The notes beneath the pieces are model-generated. The model was not told where the DNA came from, searched no databases, and saw only the letters and a program-made list of their open reading frames with translations. Position numbers and translations under genes: made by a program. A stretch of DNA of 64,000 bases from Rhizobium sp. BK602 (GTDB lineage Bacteria; Pseudomonadota; Alphaproteobacteria; Rhizobiales; Rhizobiaceae): contig NZ_JACIBC010000001.1 of assembly GCF_014195095.1 (NCBI RefSeq), positions 620,001 to 684,000 of the forward strand, given 5' to 3'. This document shows positions 17,057-28,786 of this stretch, piece by piece. Positions within the stretch are counted from its first letter, which is position 1. Each line of letters starts with the position of its first letter.

Positions 17057-17275
17057 GGGCAGTCTTGATATTGGACGTGCGGAGAGGCGCTCCGATGGGC
17101 GCCTTTCGCTTAATACAATGGCCGATATCAGGCGGGAGCCGAAAGCCACTTGCAGCGGATCGCGGCAGGTGGTTTCTTTGTTTTCAATGGTCTGGCGGTT
17201 GCCTGATAGCAATCGGGTTTTGCGGCAGTGGGGAGTTTGGTTTTCATCGGGCCATTCCCGAGGAAAGGAATGGCA

Positions 17276-18157
17276 ATGAAGACGATCGCTGCCGGTGTAC
17301 TCGACGTCGCCTATGAGGAGACCGGCCCGGAGGACGGCTTTCCGATCCTGCTTCTCCACGGTTTTCCTTACGACGCCCATGCCTATGATGACGTTGCACG
17401 GCAGCTGGCAGGCAAGGGACTGCGTTGCATCGTCCCGTTTCTTCGTGGCTATGGCCCGACGCGTTTCCTCTCGTCGGAAACGCCGCGTTCTGGCGAGCAG
17501 GCGTCGCTCGGGGCCGATTTGCTGGCCTTGATGGATGCGCTCTCGATTGAGAGCGCCATTCTCGGCGGTTATGATTGGGGCGGCAGGGCGGCTTGCATCG
17601 TCGCCGCGCTCTGGCCGGAACGTGTTCGTGGTCTGGTAAGCTGCGGAACCGGCTACAATATCCAGAATATCGCCAAGGCAGGACTGCCCGCTTCTCCTGA
17701 GGAAGAGGCTCGCTACTGGTATCAATATTACTTCCATTCTGAGCGCGGCAGGGCCGGGCTGGCCGCAAATCGCCGCGAGTTTTGCCGCTTCATCTGGCGG
17801 CTATGGTCTCCGACATGGGCGTTTGACGACGCGACCTTCGAGCGCAGCGCGGCCGCCTTCGACAATCCTGATTTCGTCGATGTCGTCATCCATTCCTACC
17901 GTCACCGGTTTGGCGGCATTGCCGGCGACCCTGCTTTCGCAGAGATCGAGGCGCGCCTGGCGAGGCAACCCGATATCATTGTGCCGACAATCGTGTTGCA
18001 GGGCGCCGACGACGGCGTCGATCCGCCAAGAACGGCTGACCGCGATGCAGCTCATTTCTCCGCACATTATCAGCGCCGGATATTGGCTGGCGTGGGGCAC
18101 AACCTGCCGCAGGAGGCTCCGGGTGATTTTGCAGAAGCGGTACTTTCGCTCCTTTAG
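17276..18157 (+). CDS. Alpha/beta hydrolase, epoxide hydrolase / haloalkane dehalogenase-like
   Basis: 293 residues. 'LLLHGFPYDAHAY' is the oxyanion loop. The nucleophile elbow 'GGYDWGG' carries Asp (D100) rather than Ser, as in epoxide hydrolases and haloalkane dehalogenases. 'LQGADDGVDPP' is the acid strand and 'GVGHNLPQEAPGDF' the catalytic His. The physiological substrate is unknown. ATG 17276 is chosen for aggaaagg about 8 bases upstream; ATG 17270 is nearly as good. The GNAT gene begins 20 bases later. Confidence 0.85.
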   Translation: MKTIAAGVLDVAYEETGPEDGFPILLLHGFPYDAHAYDDVARQLAGKGLRCIVPFLRGYGPTRFLSSETPRSGEQASLGADLLALMDALSIESAILGGYDWGGRAACIVAALWPERVRGLVSCGTGYNIQNIAKAGLPASPEEEARYWYQYYFHSERGRAGLAANRREFCRFIWRLWSPTWAFDDATFERSAAAFDNPDFVDVVIHSYRHRFGGIAGDPAFAEIEARLARQPDIIVPTIVLQGADDGVDPPRTADRDAAHFSAHYQRRILAGVGHNLPQEAPGDFAEAVLSLL

Positions 18158-18177
18158 ATCTTTGGGGGTATTCGCGG

Positions 18178-18723
18178 ATGACCAGCACGGTACCTGACCT
18201 TCAGGACGCGGGCGTCAGACTTCGTCGGCCTTGCGAGGCCGACATCGACGCGCGGTTTGCTCTGGGAACGAATGCCGATATCGCAAGAATGTTTGGCGTC
18301 AGTCGGGATAACGTCCGGCCGTTTACAAGGGCTGCGGCCGAGAAATGGGTTCGGAACTTCGATCAGCATCCACATGCCTGGATAATCGAAGCAGAGGGAT
18401 CGCTGATAGGAGAAATTCGCCTTGACCGTGTCGATCTTCAGGATCGAAGGGCTTCCATGGCGATCGGTATTTACGATACGACGTGTCTCGGTCGCGGGTT
18501 CGGCAGCAAGGCTATCAAGCTTGTGTTGGGCTATGCCTTCGGTGCGATGCAGCTACATCGGATCAGTGTCCGCGTTCTTGCCTACAACGACCGGGCTATT
18601 AGAGCGTACGAGAAATGCGGTTTCGTTCCCGAGGGCCGCGAACGGGAGACGGCGTTCGTCGATGGGCATTGGTACGATGACATTATCATGGGCGTGCTCG
18701 CGCATGAATTCGCGGCGCTGTAG
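18178..18723 (+). CDS. GNAT-family N-acetyltransferase, RimJ/RimL type
   Basis: 181 residues. The opening 'VRLRRPCEADIDARFAL' and the acetyl-CoA site 'CLGRGFGSKAIKLVLGYAF' (Q/RxxGxG/A-like motif A), followed by 'LHRISVRVLAYNDRAIRAYEKCGFVPEGRERE', are typical of acetyltransferases that modify protein N-termini or small amines. The acceptor is not known. A gggggt lies upstream of ATG 18178. Likely cotranscribed with the hydrolase. Confidence 0.87.
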   Translation: MTSTVPDLQDAGVRLRRPCEADIDARFALGTNADIARMFGVSRDNVRPFTRAAAEKWVRNFDQHPHAWIIEAEGSLIGEIRLDRVDLQDRRASMAIGIYDTTCLGRGFGSKAIKLVLGYAFGAMQLHRISVRVLAYNDRAIRAYEKCGFVPEGRERETAFVDGHWYDDIIMGVLAHEFAAL

Positions 18724-18835: not shown

Positions 18836-21800
18836 TCAGCTCAGGCGGCCCGCCGCGTGCGCCAGCATGGTGTAGACCTTGCCGGTATCCGAGGTCAGGT
18901 AGGACTGGGTGACGCTTTGGTCGCGGTCGGTGCGGGCGACGTCCGCCAGGAGCTTTTCGAAATCGGCGATATAGCGGTCGACGGCGGTGCGGAATTCCGG
19001 CTCGCGGTCGTACTTGCGCTTGATGTCGTCGAAGGTCTGCTGGCCCTTCAGCGTATAGAGGCGGCGGGTGAAGACGTCCCGTTCGCCACGCTGGTAGCGG
19101 CGCCACAGATCGACCGAGGCGTCGTGGTCGATGGCGCGGGCGATATCGACCGAGAGCGAGTTCAGCGATTCCACCACATGGCGCGGATTGCGCGTCGCAC
19201 CGGCTTCGGCCGGGGCGCGCGGCGCCGGCTGGCGAGCGGGCTGTTGCAGGTCGCCGCGTTCGTCGCGCGATGCACCGCGCAGGAGATCGCTGATCCAGCC
19301 GCCGCCTGCCGCTTCCTGGCGGGTCGGCGCCGGCGTCTCGGCGGGCCGTGGCTGCGGAACGGCCGGGCGGTCGGTGGCGATGGAGCCGCGCAGGCCGAGG
19401 GTTTCGATCGGAGGCTGCTGGGGCTGCGGAGCCGGCTGTTGCGGCACGGCCTGCTGGACCGGCGCCTGCGGCGCGGGCTGCTGCGGTCTGGGCGCCTGAG
19501 CGGTCGGGGCGGGAGCTGCCGGGCGAGGCCGCTGAGCCGGCTGGACGTCGGCAAGGGCGCGGGCTGCCGGCTCGGAAATCTCCAGCTGCTGCGTCGAGCG
19601 TCCGACGATCTGCGAGATGTCCTGCAGCGCCTTGATCTGCTCGGCGACGGCGCGGCGCATGGCGGCAGCGCTTTCCTTGGCCTCTTCCGGCAGGTCGAAG
19701 GCGCCGCGCTTCAGTTCGCTGCGGGTCAGATCGAGTTCCCTGCGGATATCGCTTGCCGAGCGGCGGATTTCGTCGGTCGCGCCGGAGAAGCGGCCGACCG
19801 CGTCATCGACGGCGATGCGCAGCGTTTCGCGAAGCTGCTGGGCGGCGCCATCCGACGTCTTGCCGGCAGCGGCGAGCATCTGTTCGACATCGGCGATCGA
19901 GGCCGAAAGGCCGCCGCGCAGGCGATCCGTCAATTCGCCCGAGCGACGCTCGGCGTTGGCGAAGGTGCTCTCGACGGTCTGGTTGGCTTCCTCGCCAGCC
20001 TTCTGGATCGAGCCGCGCATGCTTTCCGCCGCCTGTTCGGCGCGCTTTTCCGCATCGGAGAGAACGCGGCCAATATCGGCGAAGGAGGCCTGCATGCCCT
20101 GGCGCAGATTGCCAGTCACCTGGTTGGAACGCTGCTCGGCGCGCTCGAAGGCGGTTTCGACCATGCTGCCGAGGGAGCGCATGGTGTTTTCGATCTCTTC
20201 CGAGCGCTGTACCAGGCCGATGGCGAGGTTCTGAAGCGCGGTTTCGCGCTCCTCCAGTGTCGAGACGAGGTTCGATTGCGCCGCGCCCAGAAGCTGGGAT
20301 GCCTGCGACAGGACCTTGGAATGCTCGTCGAAGCGGCCGATGATGCCGCCGACCTGCGACAGCGTCTTGCCGGAGATCTCGGAGAGCTTGTCCACCTTGC
20401 CTTCGAGCAGGCGCGTCGAGGCCGCGACCATTTCGCCGGCCTTTGCCGCGGAGTCGGCAAACTGGGCGGAGGTAACGCCGAGGCGGTCGTCGATGCTGCT
20501 GAATTCCTGGGCAGCGTTGTTCAGCATGCCGACGATGGTGGAATTGTTGTCCGCCAGCCGCTCGATGATGCCGTTGACGCTGGCGAGCAGGTTGTTCTCC
20601 AGCGCGCTAACCGTGCTGGCGGCATGTTCCGTACGGGCGGAAATGGCGGCCAGCGTATCATTGGTGCGCGAGGCGATGGCGCCGATCAGGGCGGCATTCT
20701 CGGCGCGCAGCCGGTCGCTGCTTTCCTGCGCTGCCTGCGAGATCAGCGCAGCGGCTTCCTGGCCCGTTGCAGCGTAGCGGTCGACGATCGGACGCGCCTT
20801 CTCGTCGATCAGACGCGACAATTCGGTGGAGCGGCCCGCGAGCATAGAGTTGAGTTCGCGGGTGCGCTCGTCGAGCGTCGTGCGGATCGAGGTGCCGCGG
20901 GCTTCCAGAGCCTTGTCGACATCGGCGAGCGTCGAGCTGATCTCGTGGGCGCGCTGCTCCAGGCTGGAGCGGATCGCATTGCCGCGCTCATCGAGCGCGC
21001 GTTCGACCTGTGCCATGGTGGAGGCGATCTGTTCGCTGCCGCCGGCAAGCGTATCGCGGATGGCGGCGCCGCGCGATTCCAGCGAATGTTCGGCGGAAGA
21101 CAGCGCCTGCGAGATGGCGTTCACCTGGTTGCTGACCAGTCCCTCCGCCTCGGCGACCTTGTTGACGATGGCATTGCCGGCTTCCGAGAAGGTCTGGGCG
21201 ACGGCGGCGGCCTGGCCTGCCAGGCGATTGTGCGTTTCGGAGACGCGGGTGACGATCTCTTCGGAGCGCTCGCTCATGGCGCGGGTGAAGGCATCGCTGC
21301 GGTTGCCGAGGTCGTCGGCGAACTGCTGACCGGTGCGGGCGAGCAGGTCGGCCGTGCGTGTCGCTTCGCTGTCCATGCCCTGCGCGGCATCGGCGACGGC
21401 GGTGCGCAGCGTCGTGGCGAGATTGGTGGCCTTGCCTTCGATGGTGCGGTTGACGGCTTCCAGGCCGACATTGAGCGCACGGTCCATCGTCGACAGGCGT
21501 TCCTCGATGCGGGCGCTGCCGCTTTCGAGCGCCTGGCTCAGATTGTTGGTCCGGCTGTCGATGGCCTCGGCCATGGAAGCCAGCCGGGCGTCGAGCGCCG
21601 AGGTGAGGCGGGCCGAAGCATCGTCGCCGCTGCTGTCGATGCGGGCCGCGCCGCTCGCCAGCGTATCGGAGAGCCGGCTGCCGGCGGCATCGACCTGGGC
21701 GGCCACGCCGCCCACGCCGTCATGGATGCGGTTTTCGAGGGCGGAGAGGCTGGCCTCGACGCGCGAACCGGTTTCGGCGAAGCGGCTGGTCATGCCGTCG

Positions 21801-24800
21801 ATCGACTGGTTGAGGTTGGTCGAGAAGGTCTCCGCCGAGCGGGCGATATCGCCGGCTGCCTGCTGGATGCGCCCGGCAATGTCGCCGGCGCCGCTGCTCA
21901 AGCGCTCCTCGAGCGTCTTCGCGCTGGTGTCGATGGTCTGGCGCAGCGAGGCCTCGCGGTCCTCAAGCGACATTTCCAGCATGCTGGCGCTGGTGGCGAT
22001 CGAGGTGCCGATGGCGGTCGCCTGTTCCATCAGCGTGTTGTCGATCTGCTCATGGGCGTCGCGCAGCGTCAGGCTGATGGCGTTGCTGCGATCCTCCAGG
22101 GTGGAGCGCATGCGCTCATAAGCGGAGGCGAGGTTTTCGTCCATCTGCGACAGGCCGGCGCCGAGGGCCTTTTCGACCCGTTCCGCCGAGCCGCCGACAA
22201 CGCTCTCGATGCGCTCGCTGCTGCTGCCGAGCAGGCCGGAAAGTGCATCCGTATGCGCGCTGAGCGAACGGTCGAGGCGCTCCTGGTTTTCGGTATAGGC
22301 GGCGCGAATGGCATCGGCCTTGTCGCCAAAGGCGCCGGCAACGCGGGATTCCGCGCCGGAGACGCTGTCGAGCAGGGCATTGGCGCGGGATTCGAGCGTG
22401 CTTTCGAAGCGGCTCTGGTTCTCGGCGAGAGAGATGGCGAAGGCCATGCTCTTGTCGTCGAGCGTATCGGTCAGCGCGGCATGGCCCTGATTGATCGACT
22501 GGGCGATCGCTTCGGCGCTGTTTGCCAGCGTTTCCTCGATGCGAGCCTGGTTGTCGGACAGTGCGATGGCGAGCGCCAGCGTCTTGTCGTCCAGGCTGCC
22601 GACGATCTTGTCATGCGTGCCGGCGACGGTGTCGGCAAGCGCATCCATGCGGCTTGCGAGCGTATTTTCCAGGCGCGACTGGGTATCGGCCAGCGAGGCG
22701 GCCAGGGCGGTCGCCTTCTGGTTCAGGGTGTCGGCGACGGCGCTGTGGTTGTTGGTGAAGGCGCTAGCGATCGCCTCGGCGCGGTGAGACAGCGTTTCCT
22801 CGAGGCGCGACTGACCCTGGTTCAGGGCATCGGCAAGCGCCTTGGTCTTGCCATCGAGGGTGTTGGCGACCATTTCCGCATGGCCGGCGACGGTATCGTC
22901 CAGACGTGCCTGGCTTTCGGAGAGGGCGATGGCAAGTGCCATGGCCTTGTCATCGAGCGTGTCGGCAATCTTGCTATGGGTATCGGCCAGGCTGCTGGTC
23001 AGGCTTTCGGCACGGCTGGTCAGCGTGTCTTCGATGCGCGACTGTCCTTCCGAAAGGGCAATGGCGAGCGCCATCGCCTTGTCGTCCAGCGCATCGGCAA
23101 TCTTGCTGTGGGTATCGGCCAGGGCGCTGGTCAGGTTTTCCGCGCGGTTGGCGAGCGTGTCCTCGATGCGGGATTGTCCGTCAGAGAGGGCGATGGCGAG
23201 TGCCATGGCCTTGTCGTCGAGCGTATCAGCCAGCCTGTCGTGCGTATCGGCGACGGTGCTGGCAATGGCATCGGCTCGGCTCGCCAGCGTGCTTTCGAAA
23301 CGGTTCTGGCTTTCGGCAAGCGATGTCGTCAGCTTGGCGGCGCGTTCGTCGAGGGCCGAGGTCAGGCTCTCATGGGTGCCGCTGACGGCATTGAGGATGC
23401 CGGCCGAACGGTCCGCCAGGGTCTGTTCGAATCGGGACTGATGGTCGGTGAGCGCGCCGAAGAGGGCGCTGCTGCGCTCGGCCATGACGGCGTCGATATG
23501 CTCATGCGCGGAGCCCAGCGCCTGGGTGATCTCGCCGGTGCGGGCGGAGAGCGTGTTGTTGATCTCGCTGACGCGGCCAAGGAAGGTGTTGGTCAGCTCG
23601 CTGGTGCCCTTGTTGAGGGCGGACGAGATATCCGAGGTGGCGGTTTCCACGGTTTTGGTGAATTCGCCGGAATGGGCCGCGAGCGTGCTGGTGAGCTCGC
23701 TGGAACGGCCGCTGAAGGTCGAGGCGAGTTCTTCCGTGCCGCTCTGGAGCGCGGCGGAGACATCACGCGCCACGCCCTGCACGGCGGAGGCGAATTCGCC
23801 GGCCTTCGAGCCGATCGCGCTTTCGAGTACTTCCTGGCTGGTGGCGAGCGTCGTTGCCAGCGCGAAGGACTGATCGGTCAGCGAGGAACCCAAGCGTTCG
23901 ATGCTGGAGGTCAGGATGCCGTCGATCGCGTCCGAACCGCCGCTGAGCGTCTCGTTGATCCGCGTCAGGCTTTCCGACAGCTTGCTGTCCAGCGAACCGG
24001 CGCGCTTGTCGAAGGCGGAGGTGAATTCGGAAACGCGTTCGTCGAAGGTGGTCGAGAGCTGCGCCACGGTCGATTGGAACCGCTCTTCGAAGAAGCCGGA
24101 ACGCAGATCGATATCCATGATGGCGTCGTCGGCGGTCGATTGCAGGCTCTGGCGGAAGCTCGCGCCCTTTTCGTCGAGGGAGCGGTTCAGCTTGGAGAGC
24201 ACGTCGTCGAGCGTGCCGGTGATCGAGCGTTCGCCGCCGGTCAAGCTTTCACTGATCTCGCGGGTGCGGGCAACCAGCGTTTCGTTGAGCTGGCGGGCGC
24301 GCTCGTTGAGAGCGGTATTCAGCTTCTCGGTATTGGCGTCGAGCGTGGATGCGCGGGTTTCGAACTGGCCGAGCAGGTCTTTGCCGCGTTCGGCCAGCGT
24401 GGAGGACAGCGCGTCAAGGCGAGTGTCGAATTCCTGGCTTAGCGCGAAGCCGGAGGCATTGAGGTTCTGCAGCAGGCTGTCGGTCTTGGCGGCGAGCAGC
24501 GTGCCGAGCGCCTCCACGGCGGAATCCGACTTTTCCATCAGGGTTGCGGCGCGGGTGTCGATCATCGAGGCGAAAGCCTCGCCCGAGGTCGACAGGCGCA
24601 CGGCGATCTCTTCGGTCGCCAGCGACAGGTCTTCCTTGATCTGCTCGTGCACGCCGACGATCGAGGAGCGAATGCGTTCGGCATGATTGACGATCGCGTC
24701 GCGTTCGGAGCCGAGTTCGTGAACGAGACCGCGCACGCGCAGTTCGTTGTCGGCGTAGCTGCGCTCCAGCGCGTTGACTTCGGTGTGGACCAGGGTTTCG

Positions 24801-25495
24801 AGCTCGGTGGCGCGGGCGATGGTGCGCTCGATGCCTTCGTTCATGGCCGAGACTTCGCGGCGAACGGCCTGGCCGACCGTCATGATCCGCTCGGAAGCAA
24901 CCGTTTCGGGCTCAACCAGGCGCAGGGCCACTTCCGCCATGGAGCGGGCGGCATTGCGCATCTCGTGGGCTCGCGAAATCATCATGCCGAAGGCATAGAA
25001 GAGCAGTACCGGAACGACGATGCCAATGATGCAGGCAATCAGGCCGGGCAGGGCGGCAAGATCGGCGATCGAGCGCAGGCCGCGGATCTGTTCGCCATAG
25101 AGCAGGAAGGCGAGGCCGGCGCCGCCGATGATCCAGAACAGGGAGACTATGGTGGCGTTGCGGACGGCTCTGCTTTGCGAGCCGCCGTCGAGCGCCTTCA
25201 GAATGCTGGCCGGGCTGGCGCGATTGGCGTCATTGGCGGGTGCGAAGACGGGGCTCTTCGGCGCCTCGGCGGGACGGGCGGTGGTACCGCGCGCAGCAGA
25301 CGCCTTGTGGGACGCATCTTCCTGGGACTGTTTTGCAGGCGGATTGGATGGCTCAGACACACTTGCCTCCGGGGCATCGGATGTTGAATTGCCGCGAGAC
25401 TCCAAGTTCTCTTCACTGAAATCGATCTGCAGCGCTTCGTCCAATGCCTGGAAGGCCTTGTCCTCGATCGACTCGATGTACTTTTTGTTCGCCAT
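18836..25495 (-). CDS. gpr: Giant membrane-anchored coiled-coil protein, growth pole ring (GPR/RgsE) family
   Basis: 2219 residues. Order: acidic N-terminus (1-50); Pro/Ala-rich linker; two membrane helices (about 114-133 and 149-173) with 'SRAHEMRNAARSMAEVALRL' after them; a very long helical region of about 1650 residues with an 11-residue periodicity; a Pro/Gln-rich linker ('QAPRPQQPAPQ'); and a conserved C-terminal domain of about 120 residues ('LNSLSVDIARAIDHDASVDLWRRY', 'TLKGQQTFDDIKRKYDREPEFR'). Architecture and size match the apolipoprotein-like GPR protein of Agrobacterium tumefaciens and RgsE of Sinorhizobium meliloti, which form a ring at the growing pole and are needed for unipolar growth. 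The gene is alone on its strand; the ATG at 25495 precedes 'MANKKYIESI'. The assignment is by architecture, not alignment. Confidence 0.85.
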   Translation of the reverse strand: MANKKYIESIEDKAFQALDEALQIDFSEENLESRGNSTSDAPEASVSEPSNPPAKQSQEDASHKASAARGTTARPAEAPKSPVFAPANDANRASPASILKALDGGSQSRAVRNATIVSLFWIIGGAGLAFLLYGEQIRGLRSIADLAALPGLIACIIGIVVPVLLFYAFGMMISRAHEMRNAARSMAEVALRLVEPETVASERIMTVGQAVRREVSAMNEGIERTIARATELETLVHTEVNALERSYADNELRVRGLVHELGSERDAIVNHAERIRSSIVGVHEQIKEDLSLATEEIAVRLSTSGEAFASMIDTRAATLMEKSDSAVEALGTLLAAKTDSLLQNLNASGFALSQEFDTRLDALSSTLAERGKDLLGQFETRASTLDANTEKLNTALNERARQLNETLVARTREISESLTGGERSITGTLDDVLSKLNRSLDEKGASFRQSLQSTADDAIMDIDLRSGFFEERFQSTVAQLSTTFDERVSEFTSAFDKRAGSLDSKLSESLTRINETLSGGSDAIDGILTSSIERLGSSLTDQSFALATTLATSQEVLESAIGSKAGEFASAVQGVARDVSAALQSGTEELASTFSGRSSELTSTLAAHSGEFTKTVETATSDISSALNKGTSELTNTFLGRVSEINNTLSARTGEITQALGSAHEHIDAVMAERSSALFGALTDHQSRFEQTLADRSAGILNAVSGTHESLTSALDERAAKLTTSLAESQNRFESTLASRADAIASTVADTHDRLADTLDDKAMALAIALSDGQSRIEDTLANRAENLTSALADTHSKIADALDDKAMALAIALSEGQSRIEDTLTSRAESLTSSLADTHSKIADTLDDKAMALAIALSESQARLDDTVAGHAEMVANTLDGKTKALADALNQGQSRLEETLSHRAEAIASAFTNNHSAVADTLNQKATALAASLADTQSRLENTLASRMDALADTVAGTHDKIVGSLDDKTLALAIALSDNQARIEETLANSAEAIAQSINQGHAALTDTLDDKSMAFAISLAENQSRFESTLESRANALLDSVSGAESRVAGAFGDKADAIRAAYTENQERLDRSLSAHTDALSGLLGSSSERIESVVGGSAERVEKALGAGLSQMDENLASAYERMRSTLEDRSNAISLTLRDAHEQIDNTLMEQATAIGTSIATSASMLEMSLEDREASLRQTIDTSAKTLEERLSSGAGDIAGRIQQAAGDIARSAETFSTNLNQSIDGMTSRFAETGSRVEASLSALENRIHDGVGGVAAQVDAAGSRLSDTLASGAARIDSSGDDASARLTSALDARLASMAEAIDSRTNNLSQALESGSARIEERLSTMDRALNVGLEAVNRTIEGKATNLATTLRTAVADAAQGMDSEATRTADLLARTGQQFADDLGNRSDAFTRAMSERSEEIVTRVSETHNRLAGQAAAVAQTFSEAGNAIVNKVAEAEGLVSNQVNAISQALSSAEHSLESRGAAIRDTLAGGSEQIASTMAQVERALDERGNAIRSSLEQRAHEISSTLADVDKALEARGTSIRTTLDERTRELNSMLAGRSTELSRLIDEKARPIVDRYAATGQEAAALISQAAQESSDRLRAENAALIGAIASRTNDTLAAISARTEHAASTVSALENNLLASVNGIIERLADNNSTIVGMLNNAAQEFSSIDDRLGVTSAQFADSAAKAGEMVAASTRLLEGKVDKLSEISGKTLSQVGGIIGRFDEHSKVLSQASQLLGAAQSNLVSTLEERETALQNLAIGLVQRSEEIENTMRSLGSMVETAFERAEQRSNQVTGNLRQGMQASFADIGRVLSDAEKRAEQAAESMRGSIQKAGEEANQTVESTFANAERRSGELTDRLRGGLSASIADVEQMLAAAGKTSDGAAQQLRETLRIAVDDAVGRFSGATDEIRRSASDIRRELDLTRSELKRGAFDLPEEAKESAAAMRRAVAEQIKALQDISQIVGRSTQQLEISEPAARALADVQPAQRPRPAAPAPTAQAPRPQQPAPQAPVQQAVPQQPAPQPQQPPIETLGLRGSIATDRPAVPQPRPAETPAPTRQEAAGGGWISDLLRGASRDERGDLQQPARQPAPRAPAEAGATRNPRHVVESLNSLSVDIARAIDHDASVDLWRRYQRGERDVFTRRLYTLKGQQTFDDIKRKYDREPEFRTAVDRYIADFEKLLADVARTDRDQSVTQSYLTSDTGKVYTMLAHAAGRLS
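22196..23482 (-). repeat. Tandem array of 44-residue (132-bp) units inside the giant coiled-coil gene
   Basis: Ten consecutive units read without gaps from 23482 down to 22196. Nine are 44 residues, i.e. four 11-residue turns; the fifth (22954-22856) is 33, having lost exactly one turn. Units 3 and 4 (23218-22955) are nearly identical in protein ('DDKAMALAIALS.GQSRIEDTL') and very similar in DNA, and the first part of unit 5 also matches. The remaining units have diverged but keep the frame. Such 11-mers are typical of apolipoprotein-like or right-handed coiled-coil helices. Confidence 0.85.
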
Positions 25496-27198: not shown

Positions 27199-27819
27199 TC
27201 ATTCGCCATATCGGCGGGTGCGATAGGTCAGCAAACGCTGCATTCGGGTCTGGAAGTTGAGTGCTTCGATTCGGTCGAATCGGGCCTGATCCCTGTCATG
27301 CAGTTCGGTTTCGCGCGTGGTCGCTTCGTTTGCCATGTTTTGGAGTATGTCGCAGTTGCGTGCGGGCGGCAGGGCGAGGATTGCCTGTTCCATCCTGCGC
27401 GCATGCTGGCGTGCGATTTCCACATGCCGATCCTCGTGGCGGCGGATGTCGGCCGAGAGCGTGTCCCAGATCACGGACAGCTGACGGCTCGCGCGCCGCC
27501 GGTCGCGCCAGCGCGGCAGGATCACCTCGGTATCGACCGTCACCTTCACGTTTGCGATGCGGCAGCGCCCGTTTCTTTCCTCGTAGGTCGCGTTGCCGCC
27601 GAAGCGGATTTTCGTCGCTCCGGGATGATGGCTGCTGGAACCCATGGCGATCGGTCCATGCGCGTTCAGTGCCGCATCGAGCGCATCGGCTGTATCGCCC
27701 TTGATATCGAAATAGGAAATCGATTTGCGGGCGATCACTTCCGCTTCGGCCGGACCGGAAATGCCATACATAAGCAACAGGATAAGCGAGACACGTGCGT
27801 GTCGGGATGCAAGCGGCAT
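27199..27819 (-). CDS. DUF922 family, putative secreted Zn-dependent protease
   Basis: 206 residues. Signal peptide with hydrophobic core 'VSLILLLMYGISGPAEA'. The motif 'RRHEDRHVEIA' (HEDRH, 128-132) resembles the HExxH zinc site of metallopeptidases, with Asp at the third position and His completing it; 'ISYFDIKGDTADALDAALNAHGP' is the characteristic N-terminal part of DUF922. No substrate is known and activity has not been shown to my knowledge. It is divergent from folP with 103 bases between starts. Confidence 0.8.
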   Translation of the reverse strand: MPLASRHARVSLILLLMYGISGPAEAEVIARKSISYFDIKGDTADALDAALNAHGPIAMGSSSHHPGATKIRFGGNATYEERNGRCRIANVKVTVDTEVILPRWRDRRRASRQLSVIWDTLSADIRRHEDRHVEIARQHARRMEQAILALPPARNCDILQNMANEATTRETELHDRDQARFDRIEALNFQTRMQRLLTYRTRRYGE

Positions 27820-27922
27820 TCGTACTGCTACCAGGTTGAACTTCGATCAAGCTTGCGGCATAGCCACTGCGAGCGCAATATCAAGCGCGAGGTTTTTTCG
27901 TTTTCAATGGGATGGATGGTTC

Positions 27923-28786
27923 GTGACGGAGCTTCGCAGCCATAGCTGGCATGTCGCGCATGGGCGCAGCCTCGATGTCGGCGAACACAGCGTCATCATG
28001 GCGATCGTCAACGTCACCCCGGATTCCTTTTCCGATGGCGGCCACTACGAGGCGGTCGACGCCGCGGTCGCGCATGCGCTCGCCTGCATAGAGGAAGGCG
28101 CCCAGATTATCGATATCGGTGGGGAATCGACCAAGCCGGATGCGGAGGCCGTGAGCGCCACGGAAGAGCAGGGGCGGGTGCTGCCGGTGATCGAGGCGAT
28201 GCGCGCCAAGACGGACGCGCTGATCTCGATCGATACTTATCGCGCCGACACCGCTAGACTTGCCATCGGAGCCGGCGCGCATATCGTCAACGATGTCTTC
28301 GGCCTGCAGCGCGAGCCGGAAATCGCGACGCTGGCCGTGCAGACGGGTGCGGGGCTCTGCATCATGCATACGGGCCGGGAGCGACAGAAGCTGACCGATG
28401 TCATCGACGATCAAGTGCTGTTTCTCAGCCGCTCGCTCGATATCGCCGCTGCGGCCGGCGTAGCCAAGCAGAACATCGTGCTCGATCCGGGTTTCGGCTT
28501 CGCCAAGGATACGCAGGAGAACCTGGAGCTGATGGCGCGCTTCACGGCGCTGCATCGTTTCGAACTGCCGCTGCTGGCCGGCACGTCGCGCAAGCGCTTC
28601 GTCGGCGCCATTACTGGGCGGGAAGCACAGGACCGGGACGTGGGAACGGCCGCAACCAGTGCGATATTGCGGTTGCAGGGTGCTGCGATTTTTCGGGTAC
28701 ACAATGTCGCAATCAACAGGGATGCGCTGGCGGTTGCGGATGCTATTCTCAGGACACGGGCGAAATTAGGCGGCAGGACGCCATAA
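27923..28786 (+). CDS. folP: Dihydropteroate synthase
   Basis: Joins p-aminobenzoate to 6-hydroxymethyl-dihydropterin diphosphate in folate synthesis; the target of sulfonamides. 287 residues. 'IMAIVNVTPDSFSDGG' is the N-terminal signature, followed by 'GAQIIDIGGESTKPDA', 'ISIDTYRADTARLAI', 'VNDVFG' and 'LDPGFGFAKDTQENL'. GTG 27923 is chosen because the family N-terminus starts 10-20 residues before MAIVNVTP; the frame is open upstream to 27725 but into the divergent promoter and the neighbouring gene. It is the first gene of folP-folB-folK, which make successive steps of one pathway. Confidence 0.93.
   Translation: MTELRSHSWHVAHGRSLDVGEHSVIMAIVNVTPDSFSDGGHYEAVDAAVAHALACIEEGAQIIDIGGESTKPDAEAVSATEEQGRVLPVIEAMRAKTDALISIDTYRADTARLAIGAGAHIVNDVFGLQREPEIATLAVQTGAGLCIMHTGRERQKLTDVIDDQVLFLSRSLDIAAAAGVAKQNIVLDPGFGFAKDTQENLELMARFTALHRFELPLLAGTSRKRFVGAITGREAQDRDVGTAATSAILRLQGAAIFRVHNVAINRDALAVADAILRTRAKLGGRTP

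Follow-up and report, generated by a model that had tools for sequence, protein, structure and literature searches.

Length changes in steps of eleven residues in the coil of a GPR/RgsE-type giant polar-growth protein from Rhizobium sp. BK602

GPR/RgsE, related systems and the locus in strain BK602

GPR is described as forming a ring at the growth pole and as having a role in polar growth (PMC8262873), and RgsE has been termed large and 'repeat-containing' (PMC7327166). In the latter paper, the size filter was widened to 50%, and variation in RgsE length was therefore already implied there. The main text of PMC8262873 contains no word starting with repeat, hendecad, 11-mer or periodic. Within the literature covered (mainly non-subscription; titles, abstract openings, PMC8262873 and PMC7327166), neither hendecads nor a modulo-11 length rule were found for GPR/RgsE, and papers on indels in coiled coils or on the duplication of 11 residues did not include GPR. 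What is added below to the known description of GPR/RgsE is a long single register and a length rule modulo 11.

Similar helices have been described in other proteins. Human perilipin 4 (Plin4), as presented in PMC5889406, contains 968 residues of 11-mers arranged as 29 units of 33 with no indels between them, and expansion of its 99-bp coding repeat is known (PMC7360652). Plin4 has almost no aromatics, a weaker moment (0.257) and a net positive charge (PMC5889406), whereas in GPR two positions are 97% I/L/V/M/F and the net charge is negative. In Smc arms, coiled-coil lengths are likewise permitted only in certain regimes; these arms are heptad-based and change in steps of about 100 residues according to PMC5344682, whereas in GPR the step is a hendecad and the total length is loose. 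The perilipin-4 11-mer helix and the length-constrained Smc arms are precedents for the principle. ZorA of the Zorya defence system is also comparable, being a membrane protein in which five subunits bundle into an elongated tail on the cytoplasmic side (PMC11890865). The NCBIfam ZorA profile gave a partial match to residues 1099-1318 (21542-22201, minus strand) of the protein studied here at 50.2 bits, below its curated cut-off of 190.

The window, i.e., the whole stretch of 64,000 nucleotides analysed, contains an open reading frame for a GPR/RgsE-type giant protein of 2219 aa (18836..25495, minus strand; all parts of this protein given below lie on the same strand). The protein matched the Pfam profile PF01442 in 10 stretches with 223.7 bits (cut-off 90). 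Its C-terminal 154 residues were present in 120/120 genomes searched in the genus, 119/121 in the family and 140/150 in the order, and the genome of Rhizobium sp. BK602 contained a single match. Named relatives include strains of Rhizobium freirei, R. rhizogenes and R. tropici. A size of about 2000 residues with a long helical part matching PF01442, and a C-terminal region common across Rhizobiales, distinguish GPR/RgsE, and both were found here. Based on its size, layout, PF01442 match and C-terminal conservation, the product of 18836-25495 is, as judged from sequence, GPR/RgsE, the known polar-growth protein of Rhizobiales.

Like Agrobacterium tumefaciens GPR and Sinorhizobium meliloti RgsE (PMC8262873, PMC7327166), this protein is giant and has a putative N-terminal membrane anchor, a helical region matching PF01442 and a conserved C terminus. 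Two N-terminal hydrophobic segments, read by eye from the translation, form a putative transmembrane pair (residues ~110-175, 24971..25168), in agreement with the GPR architecture in PMC8262873. Judging by gap positions, the first part of the coil (residues 210-564, 23804..24868) was free of indels in the examined pairs. Further on lie the conserved C anchor used for length measurement, defined by anchor comparison (residues 1911-1957, 19625..19765), and the conserved C-terminal region (residues 2066-2219, 18839..19300), where the mean column identity was 84% in an alignment of 14 sequences. The Pro/Gln-rich linker of the gene includes short imperfect tandem repeats (19423-19486).

An open frame of 1861 aa (18857-24442, plus strand) lies antisense to the GPR gene. 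The Pfam search of this frame gave no match, and it is probably a by-product of codon usage; the longest frame is apparently antisense also in two related loci (L118 and L158). Based on Pfam annotation, the neighbouring genes encode an alpha/beta hydrolase and a GNAT acetyltransferase (17228-18723, plus strand) and, on the other side, a DUF922 protein and a pterin-binding enzyme, probably dihydropteroate synthase (27199-28786).

The hendecad array and its 44-residue units

Over the whole coil, hydrophobicity was most strongly periodic at 3.665 residues, i.e., 11/3. In residues 281-1270, a stretch picked after the whole-coil period was already known, the power at 11/3 was 72.2, compared with at most 8.8 in 2000 shuffles. 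A hydrophobic period of 11/3 over many repeats, as observed here, is one mark of a hendecad coiled coil, along with helices that pack against each other at the seam. A register HMM placed 872 residues (371-1242, 21770..24385) in one 11-residue register of 79 hendecads; the HMM was trained on stretch 281-1270 of this very protein, and its score here is therefore high by construction. The 11-residue period and the long register are both direct observations.

Within the array, I/L/V/M/F occupied positions 7 and 11 in 97% of hendecads each and every other position in at most 11%. These two columns lie about 33 degrees apart and form a seam; position 4 is mostly small or polar. The seam is flanked by position 3, with a K/R fraction of 0.37 and a D/E fraction of 0.00, and by position 8, with a D/E fraction of 0.26 and a K/R fraction of 0.05.

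In the 148 distinct sequences compared (see the next section), unbroken stretches of register covered 336-1266 residues (median 859) and reached at least 600 in 114/148. Outside the array the register shifts repeatedly, and in one clade (e.g., L074, L067) it also shifts inside. Between confident HMM segments, only shifts of 4, 8, 1 and 5 occurred (251, 171, 43 and 9, respectively), these counts being inherited, hence non-independent, and favoured by a profile with two hydrophobic columns. The results suggest viewing the 'apolipoprotein domains' reported in GPR as parts of a long 11-residue register.

Part of this array had been described in the earlier note as ten tandem units recurring every 44 residues without a gap, with the fifth unit shortened to 33 residues. 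Self-comparison confirmed this layout at residues 672-1100 (22196..23482), with nine units of 44 residues and one of 33. The identity of the tract with itself at lag 44 was 0.431, compared with a maximum of 0.148 in 5000 residue shuffles, and with a mean of 0.255 and a maximum of 0.364 when the 39 hendecads were kept intact and merely permuted (5000 permutations). Since both kinds of shuffle were exceeded, the 11- and the 44-residue periods are both beyond chance. Among lags of 5-199 that are not multiples of 11, the best identity was 0.176. At the DNA level, TRF reported a 132-bp period at 22916-23291 (2.8 copies). Sliding lag-44 identity showed that the stretch with 44-residue (4 x 11) similarity occupies residues ~547-1074 (22274..23857) and begins upstream of the ten units: windows between residue 547 and about 1030 had identities of 0.25-0.86, and those starting at 1031 and 1075 had only 0.16. 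The tenth unit is therefore placed more by the hendecad register than by 44-residue similarity.

The fifth unit (residues 848-880, 22856..22954) had been read as a clean loss of one hendecad. Its size of 33 residues stands, but the loss is not clean. Based on hendecad column comparison, the unit retains hendecads A and B, and its third hendecad resembles C (0.26) and D (0.27) equally; therefore, the loss probably spans the C/D junction. Unit structure was compared in four of eight relatives, the unit-end patterns having no match in the other four. The 33-residue unit was common to four relatives clustering with this protein (L035, L044, L040 and L038). The array has equal length in the first three, and L038 is one 44-residue unit shorter just before the 33-residue unit, in the part where unit 4 lies. 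Elsewhere in the coil, close relatives differ by whole 44- or 88-residue steps.

The same note had also taken units 3 (residues 760-803, 23087..23218) and 4 (residues 804-847, 22955..23086) for products of recent duplication or gene conversion. Six of their 44 residues differ, and their DNA identity of 84.1% is close to the 76.5-83.3% of orthologous units in three relatives, where both units are present as well; recent conversion is therefore unsupported. Mild conversion may be possible, because 84.1% exceeds the identity of the same pair within each of these three relatives (77.3-79.5%); the whole-unit differences between close relatives elsewhere also speak for the note. Assembly collapse in this gene is unlikely because its longest exact direct repeat is 18 bp; arrays of equal length occur in L035, L044 and L040, and one shorter by a unit in L038. 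In three relatives tested for collapse, exact repeats of 51-96 bp were found; therefore, single large steps there could be artefacts.

Coil length among relatives

The genus set comprised 100 of 119 other genomes, the remainder being 4 with truncated frames and 15 that were omitted. Of 211 loci in total, 32 had no frame above 1000 aa and 2 had no N anchor, and the 177 kept gave 148 distinct sequences, including the one studied here. Coil length was measured without alignment of the coil, from the conserved N anchor (residue 210) to the conserved C anchor (residue 1911). It ranged from 1386 to 2048 residues, with 1701 here. Relative to this protein, the length modulo 11 was 0 in 80 sequences, 10 in 31, 4 in 22 and 7 in 7; the rarer classes were 3 (4 sequences), 8 (2), 6 (1) and 5 (1). 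Lengths modulo 7, 8, 9, 10, 12, 13, 15 and 18 were spread out.

On a tree built from the conserved parts, parsimony required at least 86 changes of coil length but only 21 changes of modulo-11 class. Eleven other moduli (5-10, 12-15 and 18) required 62-78 class changes, moduli 2, 3 and 4 required 32, 47 and 49, and moduli 22, 33 and 44 required 46, 57 and 58. Thus none of the other moduli came as low as 11, and they were rejected as a length rule. The 21 class changes comprised 11 of one heptad (about 4 expected if uniform), 4 of two, 3 of three and 3 of four heptads. Any remainder can be expressed as 0-5 heptads gained or lost, and therefore only the excess of single-heptad changes counts as evidence; the three-heptad changes could instead be one-residue skips. 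The strict form of the rule, with lengths always differing by a multiple of 11, was rejected in view of the eight classes and the 21 class changes.

The tree of conserved parts also yielded 74 independent pairs, 55 of them with at least 90% coil identity. In 25 of these 55 pairs the coil contained gaps, 36 in total, of which 35 were multiples of 11 (11 ten times, 22 three times, 33 seven times, 44 eight times, 66 once, 88 four times and 99 twice) and one was of 29 residues. Outside the coil, in the N-terminal region and the C linker of the same pairs, only 1/102 gaps was a multiple of 11. The proposal that homologues would differ in multiples of 11 residues thus passed a test that could have refuted it, and both the length rule and its absence outside the coil were observed directly. 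The figure of 44 residues did not hold as a quantum: only 12/36 close-pair gaps were multiples of 44 and 24/36 were not, the quantum being 11. In close pairs, gaps outside the coil were of 1-11 residues, unlike those in the coil.

Multiples of 11 made up 43/46 coil gaps at 85% identity and above, 59/68 at 75% and above and 99/120 at any identity. Where a pair of at least 85% identity had a single gap, so that gap size and net length difference coincide, 15/16 gaps were multiples of 11. Nine gaps at 75% and above were exceptions. Four of them measured 29 residues and two measured 7, all six with a remainder of 7; a pair with a net difference of 55 contributed two more (3 and 58), and the last was a gap of 15 beside one of 29 (net 44). 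None of the 68 coil gaps at this level came closer than 355 residues to the N anchor or 318 to the C anchor: the coil has constant ends and a variable middle. It should be noted that gap placement can differ between DNA and protein alignments; for L128/L109, the protein alignment gave one gap of 22 residues and the DNA alignment two gaps, of 44 and 66 codons. When only the flanks were considered, the local period was hendecad-like at 56/59 multiple-of-11 gaps and at 6/9 exceptions, a modest difference (p 0.003); the p values of 9e-7 for the longer sequence of the pair and 1e-4 for the shorter are both partly circular. The local period was hendecad-like at 76% of coil positions anyway (ten sequences).

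In addition, 60 loci from other genera were analysed. Of these, 52 formed 26 pairs, each within one of 22 genera, and only the presence of proline near the gap served to separate linker from coil. In 17 pairs of at least 75% identity (16 genera), 18/22 proline-free gaps were multiples of 11, the rest being 58, 36, 40 and 40, whereas none of the 64 proline-containing gaps was. The corresponding proline-free count was 9/11 at 85% and above; at any identity, it was 40/56, compared with 8/129 for proline-containing gaps. Evidently truncated frames aside, the frames around the conserved C terminus in other genera ranged from ~850 to 3392 residues. The largest belongs to L213 (3392), and the other examined member of that genus, L212, has 2956 residues.

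Nature of the rod and meaning of its steps

Based on the above results, we consider it probable that the array forms a coiled-coil rod, that repeat recombination makes its length drift and that the changes are filtered for a continuous seam. The units would be part of a central rod in GPR/RgsE, in which one narrow hydrophobic seam runs along a long helix and returns every 11 residues (three turns), and this rod would most simply be a nearly straight hendecad coiled coil between the membrane-anchored N part and the conserved C part. Segments of the array may be gained or lost when internal DNA repeats recombine or slip. The survivors would be mainly those with the seam aligned, i.e., whole hendecads (11, 22, 33, 44, 88 ...), and more rarely changes one heptad off whole hendecads, so that length would drift widely with the helix phase kept. 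We infer that the seam is the coiled-coil interface, that selection removes phase-breaking changes and that the rod is a length-tolerant spacer. Several observations go against this reading: positions 7 and 11 alone make a thin core, the family length modulo 11 spans more than one class, the class changes of three (3) and four (3) heptads are not predicted by a hendecad/heptad rule, and the link between exceptions and local period is modest. The AlphaFold model (single chain, no alignment) shows residues 673-1100 as one helix with moderate confidence (mean pLDDT 68.4, pTM 0.22) and, being single-chain, is silent on oligomers.

It is possible in principle that the mutation supply alone produces the steps, with the helix phase unselected; the steps would then be multiples of 11 because recombination needs homology, which lies at multiples of 33 bp. 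The proportion of exact direct repeats in the coil DNA that lie at multiples of 11 codons rises with repeat length, from 29% (at least 6 bp) and 50% (8 bp) to 70% (10 bp), 91% (15 bp and longer) and 93% (at least 20 bp), and recombination alone could therefore give most large steps. Moreover, lag 29, the commonest exception (4/9 at 75% identity and above), is repeat-rich (175 runs of at least 10 bp). However, in pairs of at least 90% identity, gaps of 1-10 residues made up 101/102 gaps outside the coil and 0/36 in the coil, and only one coil gap of 3 residues appeared at 85% and above, despite 100,739 coil residues compared versus 11,934 in the C linker. DNA runs of at least 10 bp at lags 1-11 favour lag 11 in 195/306 cases, whereas the coil gaps of up to 11 residues in the closest pairs were exactly 11 in 10/10 (1/102 outside the coil). 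Several steps also have low flanking DNA identity (0.35-0.60), which later divergence could explain. Supply alone is thus an unlikely explanation. Since the DNA repeats favour the same steps as the helix phase, supply and selection are only partly separated, and we conclude that both act on the coil length.

The array might also be a lipid-binding amphipathic 11-mer helix, similar to apolipoproteins or perilipin 4, lying on the membrane at the growth pole, which is close to the proposal made in the GPR papers themselves. Besides the PF01442 score, it is favoured by a sequence search of solved proteins, in which apolipoprotein A-IV alone matched at an E threshold of 0.001 (best E 5.4e-6). The moment of 0.35-0.37 lies inside the range of lipid-binding 11-mer helices, and together with the composition (0.38 hydrophobic, 0.24 charged) it resembles Plin3 and alpha-synuclein in Table 1 of PMC5889406. 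However, the net charge of the array is -2.2 per 33 residues (-3.0 to -2.0 mid-coil in the 148 sequences), whereas that of the Plin4 33-mer is +1. Changing the latter from +1 to -1 made a fusion cytosolic, in a passage that continues with an exception (PMC5889406). Exchangeable apolipoproteins consist of proline-punctuated amphipathic 22-mers; the protein studied here shares with them the 11/22-residue periodicity and the strong Pfam match but has no proline between residues 281 and 1270. The similarity to apolipoproteins may rest on periodicity. In our reading of the sequence, the two-column seam with one basic and one acidic flank, together with the negative charge, would favour packing between helices over a lipid coat, and the lipid-binding alternative appears doubtful.

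The alpha-helix rises 0.15 nm per residue, and as straight helices the coils of the 148 sequences would span ~208-307 nm (~255 nm here). This is of the same order as the 200-nm ring that reportedly stands in the title of a 2019 GPR paper, but a ruler, with array length tuned by lineage to set the ring diameter or pole spacing, seems very unlikely to us from the sequences, as differences of 44-88 residues occur between proteins with 96-99% coil identity (L112/L111, L165/L163 and L052/L047) and length therefore looks loosely held. The coiled-coil rod of drifting length is compatible with a more speculative idea, to which we give little weight: a phase-locked, length-free rod evolving by hendecad and a few heptad steps, in which the local period would pick the step and lineages would set the reach of the polar machine. 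If so, ring size or spacing could be set by lineages without disturbing the helix interface. The 1,700-residue helical domain of GPR is given as 600 nm extended (PMC8262873). This value corresponds to 0.35 nm per residue, which is not the rise of a helix; an alpha-helix of that size would be ~255 nm.

The phase also bears on published GPR deletions in the coiled coil, which are of 21 residues in the abstract of PMC8262873; its text gives 20 residues, 413-433 or 413-434, and 1,100-1,120. Since 21 is not a multiple of 11, losing that many residues would rotate the seam by about 98 degrees, and these mutants deserve a second look. Part of their phenotypes could stem from a phase break instead of a lost binding site. 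The two deletions are similar in size but not in strength, which phase by itself does not account for. If the phase reading is true, a 22-residue deletion would be milder than one of ~21 residues.

Overall, the regularity in this known protein is real and strongly supported, and its mechanism is good in outline. The coil of GPR/RgsE offers an unusually clean natural record of helix-phase conservation, with many independent length changes, most of them whole hendecads.
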